IMG/VR virus record: IMGVR_UViG_3300035180_000276 | Coordinates: 1 to 36,738 of that record | Direction: 5' to 3' (one strand) | DNA from: a virus | Length of the DNA stretch: 36,738 bases | In this document: positions 7,076 to 36,738 of the stretch, piece after piece | Layout of the letters: each line of letters starts with the position of its first letter | Numbering within the stretch: position 1 is the stretch's first letter | The notes under the pieces: generated by a model | What the model saw: only the letters and a program-made list of their open reading frames with translations | The model's database searches: none | Told to the model about the DNA's origin: nothing | Made by a program: the position numbers and the translations under genes

Positions 7076-7308
7076 CACAGCCACCCCATCCAGCGGACGG
7101 CATAGCCGAACGCAAAACCGACCGTGGGCATCGTTGCCAGAATGACTACCAGCCCGACATGCACCCCGGCGTCTTGCTCGCTCGGCTGAGGTGCCAGCGG
7201 CAGAAACCCATAGCCGATGGCTTTCAGTTCGGCCTCAGTCAGCTTGCGCAGCGGCGGCGTCGGCTCGGCGGTACCCAGCCAGAGAGTGATGTTCCGGAGA
7301 ATGTCCAT
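7075..7308 (-). CDS. Small membrane protein, N-terminal paralogue of gene 8009-8188
   Basis: The ATG at 7308 overlaps the stop of the aaRS-like gene (TAATG). The product has 77 residues. Residues 1-38 (MDILRNITLWLG, then KLTEAELKAIGYGF) closely match the protein encoded on the other side of the aaRS-like gene. The C-terminal part differs: one membrane helix (VGLVVILATMPTVGFAFG). Function is unknown. The duplicated N-terminal part may be a recognition or docking segment. Confidence 0.7.
   Translation of the reverse strand: MDILRNITLWLGTAEPTPPLRKLTEAELKAIGYGFLPLAPQPSEQDAGVHVGLVVILATMPTVGFAFGYAVRWMGWL
7203..7236. repeat. 34-bp perfect direct repeat, copy 1
   Basis: Bases 7203-7236 are identical to 8083-8116 and lie inside the duplicated 5' segments of genes 7075-7308 and 8009-8188. 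The two copies flank the aaRS-like gene, 880 bp apart. Confidence 0.9.
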
Positions 7309-8006
7309 TACAATTCCCCTGCCATTTCGGCAACCCGGCACAACCCGATTGCGATCTCGCAGACACGCACATCGCCGGAGAAATCGGTCCTGATTGAGCA
7401 AGACGCCACCTCTTTCCAAGCGCCACGCCAGAAGGCTTCAATGTCAATGGTACTTTCGCTGTATGCCGGCAGCCTGTCACTGGCCACTTGGCGCGTCTCA
7501 CACCCCGTAAACCGCCGAACCTCCGTCGACACTGCGGGCATGACGGCAGCGCGATAGTCGGCTTTCGTATCGGCGCGATAGATGCACTGAAATTCCAACT
7601 GCCAGAACTCATTGAAGCGTAGTTTCGCCGCAGACGCACCGTCATTGCTTTCGGTGCGGAACGACTTCCCAGACTGCCAGACACAGAGCGGCAACTTTTG
7701 CCCCCTAGCTATCATATCCTTTGCCGCGAGATAGCTTGAGGCGGTCGTTTCTGCCCGAAGCGCCCATGCCTGATCGGCCTTGCGCCACTGGACCGGGAAG
7801 AAGTCGCCGGGCTCATAGGCATCGCTCATCATGGCCTGTGACGTAAGGACCGGCCCTTCCGTTCTGGCAAACCGCCATGCCGGGTTCAGCCCGAGAAGCG
7901 CGGATTTCACCGCCGCAACGGTGCGCGATTGAAACGCTTCCCGAAGCTCGATTTCAGTCTCTGACCACCACCGCAGCCCAGATATTGACGTAAGCGATTG
8001 GCTCAT
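7308..8006 (-). CDS. Class II aminoacyl-tRNA synthetase-like catalytic core protein
   Basis: The 232-residue product carries all three class II motifs in order. Motif 1 is a helix (REAFQSRTVAAVKSAL) then FARTEGPVLTS with Pro52. A segment ALRAETTASSYLAA (82-95) mirrors the LRPET region of glycyl-type enzymes. Motif 2 is SGKSFRTE (112-119) with Arg117 and Glu119, then RFNEFWQLEFQ (130-140). WKEVASCSIRTDF (197-209) resembles the strand before motif 3, and IAIGLCRVAEM (218-228) gives the motif 3 Arg224. It is closest by eye to the Gly/Ser/Thr/Pro group. There is no anticodon-binding or editing domain, so charging of tRNA is doubtful. It may activate an amino acid and pass it to another acceptor. 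The end overlaps the next gene (TAATG). Confidence 0.8.
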   Translation of the reverse strand: MSQSLTSISGLRWWSETEIELREAFQSRTVAAVKSALLGLNPAWRFARTEGPVLTSQAMMSDAYEPGDFFPVQWRKADQAWALRAETTASSYLAAKDMIARGQKLPLCVWQSGKSFRTESNDGASAAKLRFNEFWQLEFQCIYRADTKADYRAAVMPAVSTEVRRFTGCETRQVASDRLPAYSESTIDIEAFWRGAWKEVASCSIRTDFSGDVRVCEIAIGLCRVAEMAGEL

Positions 8007-8008
8007 GA

Positions 8009-8188
8009 TCACCACTCCCTCGGGCAAATATTGTAGACATTCGTTGCCCGCATGGCGATGCGGTGGGCCTCTTCCAGCGGCGGAAACCCATAGCCGATGG
8101 CTTTCAGTTCGGCCTCGGTCAGTTTGCACGGCAGCGGTGATGGTTCGGAATCGCCCAGCCACATGGTGATCGTGCGGAGAACGTCCAT
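8009..8188 (-). CDS. Small accessory protein (59 aa), paralogous to start of gene 7075-7308
   Basis: The ATG at 8188 overlaps the preceding stop (TAATG). The product begins MDVLRTITMWLGDSEP and contains CKLTEAELKAIGYGFPPL, shared with the gene beyond the aaRS-like gene. It then ends EEAHRIAMRATNVYNICPREW with no membrane helix. It lies directly upstream of the aaRS-like gene in the same transcript, so the two may act together. No known domain. Confidence 0.65.
   Translation of the reverse strand: MDVLRTITMWLGDSEPSPLPCKLTEAELKAIGYGFPPLEEAHRIAMRATNVYNICPREW
8083..8116. repeat. 34-bp perfect direct repeat, copy 2
   Basis: Second copy of the repeat at 7203-7236. Recombination between the copies would remove the aaRS-like gene and fuse the two paralogues in frame, because the repeat has the same reading phase in both genes. 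Confidence 0.9.
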
Positions 8189-8370
8189 TATTTGGCTTCC
8201 ACTTGGCGCAGCACCAGGTCGGTAAATTCCGACTCGTCGCCCTCGCCGCGCTGATCATCGAAACACTCGCGGCAGAGCAGATCGTCGGCGGTCCAGCCGT
8301 CGTTGTTGCGGACGCGCAATTCAACGCCGGTCGCGCCGCAGCTATCGCAGGCGATAAAATGGCCTATCAC
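8188..8370 (-). CDS. Small zinc-ribbon-like protein
   Basis: A GTG at 8370 overlaps the previous stop (GTGA) and is preferred over a longer frame that would overlap the upstream gene widely. The 60-residue product has two Cys pairs: CDSC near residues 8-11 and CREC near 34-37, with 22 residues between them. This is a zinc-ribbon layout. The C-terminus is acidic then helical. It may bind nucleic acid or protein; no family is named. Confidence 0.6.
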   Translation of the reverse strand: MIGHFIACDSCGATGVELRVRNNDGWTADDLLCRECFDDQRGEGDESEFTDLVLRQVEAK

Positions 8371-8836: not shown

Positions 8837-9450
8837 GCCGGCACCAGTTTTCCGCCGACTGCGCGATAGGCGACATTCGGCAGGATGCCGTCCTCGCCCA
8901 CGTATCCAATTGCGATCCGATAGCGCAAGCCATCCCACCATTTGATACTCAGGATGGACCATGAGCCCCCGGTGAGTGTGGACCTGTTGCCCCCGGTAAG
9001 GATGGACCCGTAGCCCCCGGTGAGGGTAGCCCCCTCGCCTCCGGCGAGGATGGACCCGTAGCCCCCGGTGAGGGTGGACCCCGCGCCCCCAGTGAGGATG
9101 GCCCCGATCACCGCGCCCCGCGCTCCGAGGCGGATGATTTCTGTCGTGGCGTCAAGCCTCGAACCGCAGAACACGACCTCGCCACGCGGAAACTTGACCT
9201 TGCCTTCCAGGGCAATCCAATCCTCAACTGCGACCACCAGCCAAACCGCATCATATGACCAGTCGGCCAGAAATCCATCACCGTAGCCCCACAGAAACCC
9301 ATGTAGGCCGTTTCCGCATTCGGGCGTGGGTTGCCAATCATGGCATTCTACCATCCCGGATCGGGGACAGACAAAACCGCCATAGCTGGTCATGCCGGCT
9401 GCGCAGGTGCGCAGGACATAGGCGGCAGATTTGGGCTTGCGTTCGGTCAT
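8833..9450 (-). CDS. Protein with ice-nucleation-like octapeptide repeats (DUF7666-like N-terminus)
   Basis: The ATG at 9450 is chosen because it overlaps the previous stop (ATGA); an upstream TTG in frame lies inside the previous gene. The product has 205 residues. Residues 10-100 (YGGFVCPRSGMVECHDWQP, then ECGNGLHGF and WLVVAVEDWIALEGKVKFP) resemble the small phage domain DUF7666. Residues 113-168 are seven octads of the form GGYGSILT / GGNRSTLT. The alternation YGS then xxS/A gives the 16-residue period of bacterial ice-nucleation proteins, whose consensus is AGYGSTxT. The end is VGEDGILPNVAYRAVGG. A beta-solenoid is expected; function unknown. Confidence 0.7.
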   Translation of the reverse strand: MTERKPKSAAYVLRTCAAGMTSYGGFVCPRSGMVECHDWQPTPECGNGLHGFLWGYGDGFLADWSYDAVWLVVAVEDWIALEGKVKFPRGEVVFCGSRLDATTEIIRLGARGAVIGAILTGGAGSTLTGGYGSILAGGEGATLTGGYGSILTGGNRSTLTGGSWSILSIKWWDGLRYRIAIGYVGEDGILPNVAYRAVGGKLVPA

Positions 9451-9809
9451 TCTTGCACCCAATCCGACAGATCGCAGGGCCGGGACGAGGCCGGGATTTC
9501 GTCAATGTCGCCCTGCAGGCCGGAACAGTTTCCCCGCAGGCCGGTGCAGTTGCCCCGCAGGCCAGTGCATTTACCCCGCAGGCCGGAACAGTCGCCCCGC
9601 AGGTCGGTGCAGTCACCCTGCAGACCGGAACAGTCGCCCCGCAGGCCGGAGCATTTGCCCCATAGGCCGAAGCATTTGCCCCACAGGCCGGTGCAGTTTC
9701 CGCGCAGGTCGGTACAGTCTCCGGTCATATCCGGGTTCGGCCCCATCACCATCACGCCATCGGCGAAGTGATACAGGGCGGGCGCGGTGCGCGTCAGTGG
9801 CTTGGTCAT
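9447..9809 (-). CDS. Cys-rich heptapeptide-repeat protein C (11 units)
   Basis: The ATG at 9809 overlaps the previous stop (ATGA). Product: 120 residues = 28-residue N-cap (MTKPLTRTAPALYHF...) + 11 heptads of the form xGDC(S/T)xL + 15-residue C-cap (PASSRPCDLSDWVQE). Cys and Leu recur every seven residues, so one Cys and one Leu column would stack in a solenoid. Two variant units carry Lys in place of Asp/Asn. It differs from pentapeptide-repeat proteins in period and in the Cys column. Function unknown. Confidence 0.75.
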   Translation of the reverse strand: MTKPLTRTAPALYHFADGVMVMGPNPDMTGDCTDLRGNCTGLWGKCFGLWGKCSGLRGDCSGLQGDCTDLRGDCSGLRGKCTGLRGNCTGLRGNCSGLQGDIDEIPASSRPCDLSDWVQE

Positions 9810-9873
9810 TCTTGCACCCAATCCGACAGATTGCAGGGCCGGGCGGACGCTGGGATAGCATCAATGTCGCCCC
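9786..9873. repeat. 88-bp perfect direct repeat, copy 1
   Basis: Bases 9786-9873 equal 10313-10400 without mismatch (offset 527). Each copy covers the 3' cap of one heptad-repeat gene, the ATGA junction and the first codons of the next gene. A similar but diverged junction lies at about 9440-9515. Confidence 0.95.
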
Positions 9874-10336
9874 ACAAGCCGGAACAGTTTCCCCGCAGGC
9901 CGGTGCAGTCGCCCCATAGGCCGGAGAAGTCGCCCCGCAGGTAGGTGCAGTATCCCCGCAGGAAGGTGCAGTTACCCCGCAGGAAGGTGCAGTCACCCCG
10001 CAGGAAGGTGCAGTCACCCCATATGTCAGAACAGTTGCCCCGCAGCCCGGCGAAGTCGCCCCGCAGCAAGGTACAGTTGCCTCGCAGGTCGGTGCAGTCG
10101 CCCCGCAGGCCGGAGCAGTTGCCCCGCAGTCCGGAGCAGTCGCCCCATATATCGGAACAGTCTCCCCACAGACCAGAGCAGTCGCCATACAGGCCGGTGC
10201 AATCGCCCCACAGGCCGGTGCAGTTGCCCCGCAGACCGGAACAGTCGCCGGTCATATCCGGGTTCGGCCCTGTCACCCTTTTATCAACGATGTAGTGATA
10301 CAGGGCGGGAGTGGTGCGCGTCAGTGGCTTGGTCAT
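9806..10336 (-). CDS. Cys-rich heptapeptide-repeat protein B (19 units)
   Basis: The ATG at 10336 overlaps the previous stop (ATGA). The 176 residues split as 28-residue N-cap, 19 heptads and 15-residue C-cap. The caps are nearly identical to those of protein A. Most units are (R/W)G(D/N)C(T/S)xL; a few replace Cys by Phe (GDFAGL, GDFSGL) or carry aromatic residues before Leu (CTFL, CTYL). Copy number is the main difference from its paralogues. It likely arose by tandem duplication. No catalytic motif and no signal peptide. Confidence 0.75.
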   Translation of the reverse strand: MTKPLTRTTPALYHYIVDKRVTGPNPDMTGDCSGLRGNCTGLWGDCTGLYGDCSGLWGDCSDIWGDCSGLRGNCSGLRGDCTDLRGNCTLLRGDFAGLRGNCSDIWGDCTFLRGDCTFLRGNCTFLRGYCTYLRGDFSGLWGDCTGLRGNCSGLWGDIDAIPASARPCNLSDWVQE

Positions 10337-10400
10337 TCTTGCACCCAATCCGACAGATTGCAGGGCCGGGCGGACGCTGGGATAGCATCAATGTCGCCCC
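10313..10400. repeat. 88-bp perfect direct repeat, copy 2
   Basis: Second copy of the 9786-9873 repeat, at the junction of proteins A and B. Exchange between copies would gain or lose one whole 527-bp gene unit in frame. Confidence 0.95.
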
Positions 10401-10800
10401 GCAGACCGGTGCAGTCGCCCCACAGGCCGGAGCAGTCGCCCCGCAGGTCCGTGCAGTTGCCCCGCAGACCGGTGCAGTCGCCCTTCAGGTAGGTGCAGTT
10501 ACCCCGCAGGAAGGTGCAGTCACCCCGCAGGTTGGTGCAGTCGCCCCATATGTCAGAACAGTTGCCCCACAGGCAGGAGACGTCGCCTTGCAGCAAGGTA
10601 CAGTTGCCCCGTAGGTTGGTGCAGTCGCCCCATAGGCCAGTGCAGTCGCCCCACAGGCCAGTGCAGTCGCCCCGTAGGTCGGTGCAGTCACCCAGCAGAC
10701 AGGAACAGTCGCCGGTGATATCCGGGTTTGGTCCCGCCACCCTTTTATCAACGATGTAGTGATACAGGGTGGGAGTGGTGCGCGTCAGTGGCTTAGTCAT
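10333..10800 (-). CDS. Cys-rich heptapeptide-repeat protein A (16 units), first gene of accessory operon
   Basis: Two in-frame ATGs exist (10806 and 10800). The one at 10800 is chosen because AAGGGGG stands six bases before it. Product: 155 residues = 28-residue N-cap (MTKPLTRTTPTLYHYIVDK...), 16 heptads and the C-cap PASARPCNLSDWVQE. One unit has Val for Cys (GDVSCL). A 21-base DNA period underlies the repeats. Being first in the transcript, it should be the best expressed of the family. Cytosolic, function unknown. Confidence 0.75.
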   Translation of the reverse strand: MTKPLTRTTPTLYHYIVDKRVAGPNPDITGDCSCLLGDCTDLRGDCTGLWGDCTGLWGDCTNLRGNCTLLQGDVSCLWGNCSDIWGDCTNLRGDCTFLRGNCTYLKGDCTGLRGNCTDLRGDCSGLWGDCTGLRGDIDAIPASARPCNLSDWVQE

Positions 10801-10830
10801 CTTCATCCCCCTTAGCGTCGTACCTTGGGG
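10801..10830 (-). promoter_or_regulatory. 5' leader hairpin covering the ribosome site of the accessory operon
   Basis: Read on the minus strand, the predicted transcript begins in a C run (CCCC-AAGG, from about 10830) and meets AAGGGGG just before the first start codon. The C run can pair with the G run of the ribosome site. This would make a small hairpin at the very 5' end that hides the site. Confidence 0.4.
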
Positions 10831-36588: not shown

Positions 36589-36738
36589 ATGTCTCTGAAG
36601 CTGATCGAGAACTGGGCCGACGTGCTATGGAAGTCCCTGTCGCTCTGGTGCCTTTATATCGCCGGTATGGCGGCGGCCGTGCACGAGACGATTGCCAAGG
36701 TGCCGCATGGCATCATCCCCGACGATCTGGTCGCAAAG
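36589..36738 (+). CDS. Small holin-like membrane protein, 5' part
   Basis: ATG 36589 with upstream GAGG. The frame (MSLKLIENWADVLW...) runs off the window end and is continued at bases 1-240. The one mismatch in the overlap changes Ile to Val in the codon at 36730. It is the first part of the gene described at 1-240. Confidence 0.75.
   Translation, partial: MSLKLIENWADVLWKSLSLWCLYIAGMAAAVHETIAKVPHGIIPDDLVAK
36604..36738. repeat. Right copy of 135-bp terminal overlap
   Basis: Matches bases 1-135 except at 36730 (G instead of A). Joining the ends restores one intact gene (36589 through 240), which argues for a circular map. Confidence 0.95.

Follow-up and report, generated by a model that had tools for sequence, protein, structure and literature searches.

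A phage-encoded mini core resembling glycyl-tRNA synthetase with a predicted glycine-adenylating active site

The window analyzed here (the whole stretch of 36,738 nucleotides, positions 1 to 36,738 of the IMG/VR virus record IMGVR_UViG_3300035180_000276) encodes a 232-amino-acid protein, which, judged from its modeled structure, is a class II aminoacyl-tRNA synthetase (aaRS) core closest to the alpha2 glycyl-tRNA synthetases (GlyRS). The protein is predicted to work like the adenylation half of a GlyRS, yet it is not a member of the GlyRS family, because it contains no anticodon domain and its score stays below the cut-off of the GlyRS model NF003211. It belongs to a coherent family found mainly in phages. 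The protein is very probably an active class II core, and the residues of its pocket make glycine the likely substrate. In the most far-reaching interpretation, which is somewhat more doubtful than not, a widespread phage enzyme would activate glycine on a bare GlyRS core and put it to a use so far undescribed, either by charging tRNAs through recognition of the acceptor end only (perhaps an amber tRNA in one clade) or by glycylating a non-tRNA target and thereby redirecting the host.

The mini-GlyRS gene extends on the minus strand from an ATG at position 8006 to a TAA stop codon at 7310-7308 (Table 1). A GGGAG-type ribosome-binding site is located just 5' of the ATG, and the plus strand is broken up by stop codons in this section. 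An earlier note on this DNA, which had described a 232-residue class II core at 7308-8006, is confirmed in this respect, with the minus strand as the coding strand. The comparison of the gene with its nearest relatives resulted in a pN of approximately 0.30 versus a pS of 0.73-0.82. The divergence is thus strongly conservative, far beyond chance, and this purifying selection supports a function of the mini-GlyRS. The window gene is an accessory one: a short repeat flanks it on both sides, and the small genes that share its operon are not conserved.

Table 1. Features of the mini-GlyRS gene and its flanking repeats in the window
Feature	Position	Strand	Basis
Mini glycyl-tRNA-synthetase-like core, 232 aa	7308..8006	-	Pfam, NCBIfam, AlphaFold2, Foldseek
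Motif 1 region, residues 41-56 (N41, E50, P52)	7839..7886	-	N41 99%, E50 94%, P52 94%, 70 homologues
E86 in LRAETT, equivalent of MtbGlyRS Glu165, predicted to hold the glycine amine	7749..7751	-	Alignment
Motif 2, residues 115-140 (R117, E119, R130, F134, Q136, E138, Q140)	7587..7664	-	Invariant, 70 homologues
Lid segment, residues 177-188 (Y182, equivalent of MtbGlyRS Tyr264)	7443..7478	-	Y182 invariant
Motif 3, residues 213-224 (E217, A219, R224)	7335..7370	-	E217, R224 invariant; A219 69/70
117-bp direct repeat, downstream copy, within 78-aa ORF	7194..7310	-	81% identity between copies
117-bp direct repeat, upstream copy, within 59-aa ORF	8074..8190	-	81% identity between copies

Elsewhere in the window, three overlapping paralogous ORFs with short repeats of the GDCTGLRGNC type are arranged head to tail on the minus strand (9447-10806). 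A short ORF on the same strand (7075-6960) starts with MRVLIGCERSGVVRRAFSG and stops after 38 residues; its beginning resembles that of a phage gene of the methyltransferase type, and it is probably a remnant. The two ends of the record (1-135 and 36604-36738) overlap by 135 bp with 99.3% identity (one mismatch), which would fit a genome that is complete and either circular or terminally redundant.

The assignment to the GlyRS-type cores was obtained with sequence models as well as with a structure prediction. Pfam family PF00587 matched the window protein above the cut-off (E 7e-8, 33.2 bits vs. 29.3). In the NCBIfam ranking, GlyRS models came first, with weaker matches to HisRS and SerRS; the score of NF003211 was 40.1 bits (E 2e-10), whereas the cut-off of this model is 312 bits. 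GlyRS models matched all 63 family members, HisRS models 53, and SerRS models 15 of them. PHROGs contained no family for the window protein, and only two weak singletons were obtained across the homologues. The AlphaFold2 model, for which 63 sequences (the window protein and IMG/VR relatives) served as input, reached a mean pLDDT of 93.7 and a pTM of 0.91. When compared with the PDB using Foldseek, GlyRS entries occupied ranks 1 to 11 (best 8t5n, E 2.7e-14, TM 0.71 relative to the query length); the cores of PheRS, SerRS, ProRS, and PylRS ranked behind them. The family profile matched PDB sequences of GlyRS (1.8e-17), SerRS (6.5e-6), and PylRS (1.8e-5). The earlier note had named a structure search and the conservation of the motif residues as checks for its stand-alone class II core. 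Both have been carried out: the class II fold is present with GlyRS as the best match, and R117, E119, and R224 are invariant among 70 homologues, P52 being kept in 94%. That an anticodon-binding domain is missing, as had also been noted, is borne out by the end of the protein eight residues beyond the motif 3 arginine. Four viral proteins in BFVD (A0A141HRQ2, A0A2I7SAH4, A0A292GIB7, and K7QJG2; 185-217 amino acids, 11-16% identity), one of which originates from Escherichia phage phAPEC8, have a class II core fold as well and may constitute additional families of such mini cores.

The residues contacting glycyl-adenylate are listed for the structure of the mycobacterial GlyRS (PMC12208437) and were transferred to the window protein via HMMER alignments. 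Glu165, Arg197, Glu199, R208, Phe212, Gln214, and Glu216 of MtbGlyRS correspond to E86, R117, E119, R130, F134, Q136, and E138, respectively, while Tyr264, Glu284, Arg291, Glu324, Ala326, and Arg331 correspond to Y182, E199, R206, E217, A219, and R224. At none of these 13 positions does more than one of the 70 homologues deviate, and the sole exception at E86 is found at locus L011, where the stretch looks frame-shifted. All three glutamates predicted to hold the amine of glycine (E86, E138, and E217) are present together with the gate residue A219, which is retained in 69 of the 70 homologues and whose equivalent, Ala326 of MtbGlyRS, is said to hinder side chains (PMC12208437). The buried Glu218 of GlyRS is replaced by glutamine (Q140) in all 70 homologues. 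All mapped contacts to glycine and ATP were also found in the homologue from Devosia. Because of this residue identity with solved GlyRS structures, glycine adenylation is predicted, in which the mini core would bind ATP and glycine and form glycyl-adenylate.

About 70 distinct homologues were detected, mainly in jumbo phages of Caulobacter, Brevundimonas, Sinorhizobium, and Xanthomonas and in uncultured huge phages; a few come from contigs of small phages, and a single one from a replicon of Devosia. The tblastn search yielded 19 phage records, all with 33-51% identity (Caulobacter and Brevundimonas jumbo phages, Sinorhizobium phage Phosso, Xanthomonas phage XbC2, and two uncultured phages of >600 kb). 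More than 80 loci were found in IMG/VR, many of them within contigs of 100-560 kb. The nearest relatives (L001 and L011-L017, 59-63% identity) reside on contigs of 5.5-177 kb. A terminase gene is located near some of the loci, for example L011 and the L073-L084 group, and small phages therefore probably carry the family, too. The homologue of Devosia neptuniae is a full-length orphan gene (44% identity) on a 533-kb replicon, and partial matches were obtained on plasmids of Rhizobium and Neorhizobium. A search of genome contigs with one query sequence resulted in a single match, on a short contig of a metagenome bin. The annotations within the family are inconsistent ("hypothetical protein," "serine-tRNA synthetase," "RNA synthetase class II," and "aminoacyl-tRNA synthetase"). 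The gene at L006:5998-6750 (PV764938.1) is labeled as serine-tRNA synthetase; its pocket residues are of the GlyRS type, and this label is likely a misannotation. A literature search revealed no description of the mini-GlyRS family, an absence that is not a proof.

GlyRS binds its tRNA with an insertion domain, a YxG loop, and a C-terminal anticodon domain (PMC12208437). The insertion domain, the hairpin linker, and the anticodon domain are absent from the window protein, and upon inspection of the alignment, the phenylalanine that stacks on A76 in GlyRS falls into a region without obvious conservation. The acidic pI of 5.8 (family median 5.5) does not point to a general affinity of the mini core for RNA. 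C35 and C36 of the anticodon are identity elements for glycine in bacteria (PMC9976931); the mini core could not read them. For the acceptor, tRNA is our first choice, made with slightly more doubt than conviction, and a non-tRNA acceptor is the second. The activated glycine would be passed to the 3' end of a host or phage-encoded tRNA, of which the acceptor end alone might be recognized, since the mini core possesses neither the anticodon-binding nor the insertion domain. The mini core could thereby serve as a phage-owned supplement to the glycine charging of the host during infection. Belief and doubt are about balanced as to whether the mini core belongs to the phage translation toolkit as a minimal enzyme that activates glycine and would probably charge a tRNA end.

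The surroundings of the homologues were analyzed for tRNA genes. In jumbo phages, the homologue is often close to a tRNA gene: of 41 loci with less than 65% identity, 14 have one within 500 nt, approximately threefold more than the 4.6 expected from random placement of a gene of the same size anywhere within the same locus. Below 55% identity, this enrichment is weak (4 tRNA-adjacent loci vs. 1.8 expected, n = 20, p ~0.05). tRNAs for glycine are not enriched beside the homologues (14% within 1 kb vs. 10-16% further off), and the isotypes are mixed. The window is devoid of tRNA genes, and none lies near the mini-GlyRS on the remaining contigs of small phages. The argument of the earlier note that a 36-kb phage has little need to charge tRNA is weakened, since most relatives are found in jumbo phages, which encode up to 67 tRNAs each, and often beside tRNA genes. 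A full-length GlyRS scoring above the cut-off was found in none of 23 carrier phage records. One CRISPR spacer of a huge phage has been reported to target a host glycyl-tRNA synthetase (PMC7162821), which says nothing direct about the mini-GlyRS.

Alternatively, the activated glycine might go to an acceptor other than tRNA (a protein of the host, a small molecule, or a modified base), following the examples of EpmA, Glu-Q-RS, MshC, and the amino acid:carrier protein ligases; the tRNA-gene proximity in jumbo phages argues against this. Such a transfer is a serious but rather doubtful alternative. It would be in accordance with the loss of the tRNA-binding parts next to an untouched adenylation site and with the presence of the gene in small phages and on the Devosia replicon without a tRNA nearby; moreover, acceptors other than tRNA are known for several aaRS cores that lack a tRNA-binding domain (PMC9437257). 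However, no conserved neighbor offers itself as an acceptor. Neither of the two repeat-bearing ORFs flanking the gene matched a Pfam family, and the window neighbors in general gave weak Pfam matches at most. The 78-aa ORF has no relative in IMG/VR, and at the threshold used, no window neighbor clustered with genes beside any homologue, which makes the window neighbors poor candidates for dedicated acceptors. PP-binding carrier proteins (PF00550) are absent in 27 of 29 records, including the window, and in the other two they are not encoded near the mini-GlyRS gene, so that a carrier protein was rejected as the acceptor. On these grounds, the earlier idea that the neighboring small proteins may serve as acceptors is not supported.

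A pairing of the mini core with an amber-decoding tRNA(CUA), similar to stand-alone PylRS cores, is highly improbable. A tRNA(CUA) is the only tRNA within 8 kb at eight loci from a single clade of jumbo phages and in Phosso; it is positioned 53-1872 nt upstream of the synthetase on the same strand and, in those genomes whose array positions were listed, far from the main tRNA arrays. The synthetases of these loci are 60-89% identical, and PylRS cores weakly match the family profile. The loci share a syntenic block, however, and may reflect a single inherited arrangement. TAG recoding in the clade was rejected based on stop codon usage and ORF coverage, both of which look standard, and the CUA tRNAs carry G73 (U73 in bacterial tRNA-Gly) and variable acceptor stems, which is not a glycine identity. 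The shared synteny, the lack of TAG recoding, and G73 therefore reduce a cognate pair to a lead. The window has no such tRNA gene, and most of the relatives also lack it; beside the synthetase gene, it occurs only in the one clade and Phosso. The lone tRNA(CUA) upstream of the mini-GlyRS (L006, L032, L033, L039, L042, L045, L046, L051, and L054) has the anticodon loop CUCUAAA and G73; a CysRS gene is usually also found upstream, and these jumbo phages carry up to ~58 tRNAs elsewhere. An idle or signaling core acting as a sensor of uncharged tRNA, as a decoy, or as a source of dinucleotides like Ap4A has precedents in HisZ and LysU (PMC9437257) and is highly improbable. All ATP and glycine contacts are kept across 40-60% divergence, whereas HisZ lacks adenylation activity, and catalytic residues that are intact speak against an inactive core with a sensory role alone.

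Among the class II cores whose adenylation site is apparently complete, the protein is one of the smaller ones. If tRNA charging holds true, it would be a natural minimal synthetase, informative as to how little of an aaRS suffices; if another target is glycylated, it would be a novel tool of phages. With glycine as the predicted substrate, either case can be tested directly with one purified protein.

Compared with known systems, the mini core resembles the stand-alone PylRS as a single-domain class II core (~270 amino acids in PylRS), and one mini-GlyRS clade adjoins a tRNA(CUA); it differs in its glycine-type pocket, in having GlyRS as the closest sequence relatives, and in the lack of a tRNA(CUA) in the window. 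EpmA/PoxA and HisZ are likewise reduced class II cores that abandoned tRNA charging, but they are derived from LysRS and from HisRS (HisZ without adenylation activity), respectively. There is no support for a HisZ, since the mini core keeps the catalytic residues and matches GlyRS best, nor for an EpmA, as no LysRS model is among its matches; an EF-P or HisG partner was not noticed in the annotated neighborhoods that were read. The amino acid:carrier protein ligases share the class II core without a tRNA-binding domain, and some are specific for glycine (PMC9437257). The window record contains no carrier protein. These ligases are described as zinc dependent; no cysteine or histidine is among the invariant or nearly invariant columns of the mini-GlyRS family, which, at the level of column conservation, would speak against a zinc-dependent site. 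From the earlier interpretation, the stand-alone class II core thus remains, narrowed to the GlyRS type, while the neighbors as acceptors and a membership in the EpmA, HisZ, or carrier-ligase families found no support. The alpha2 GlyRS of Mycobacterium tuberculosis (8t5n) and Thermus thermophilus (1ati/1b76) are approximately 460 residues long and, unlike the mini core with its invariant glutamine in place of Glu218 and its score far under the GlyRS model cut-off, possess the insertion domain, hairpin linker, and anticodon domain. With them, the mini core shares the core fold, motifs 1-3, the three glycine-amine glutamates, the alanine gate, and the equivalents of Gln214 and the lid tyrosine.
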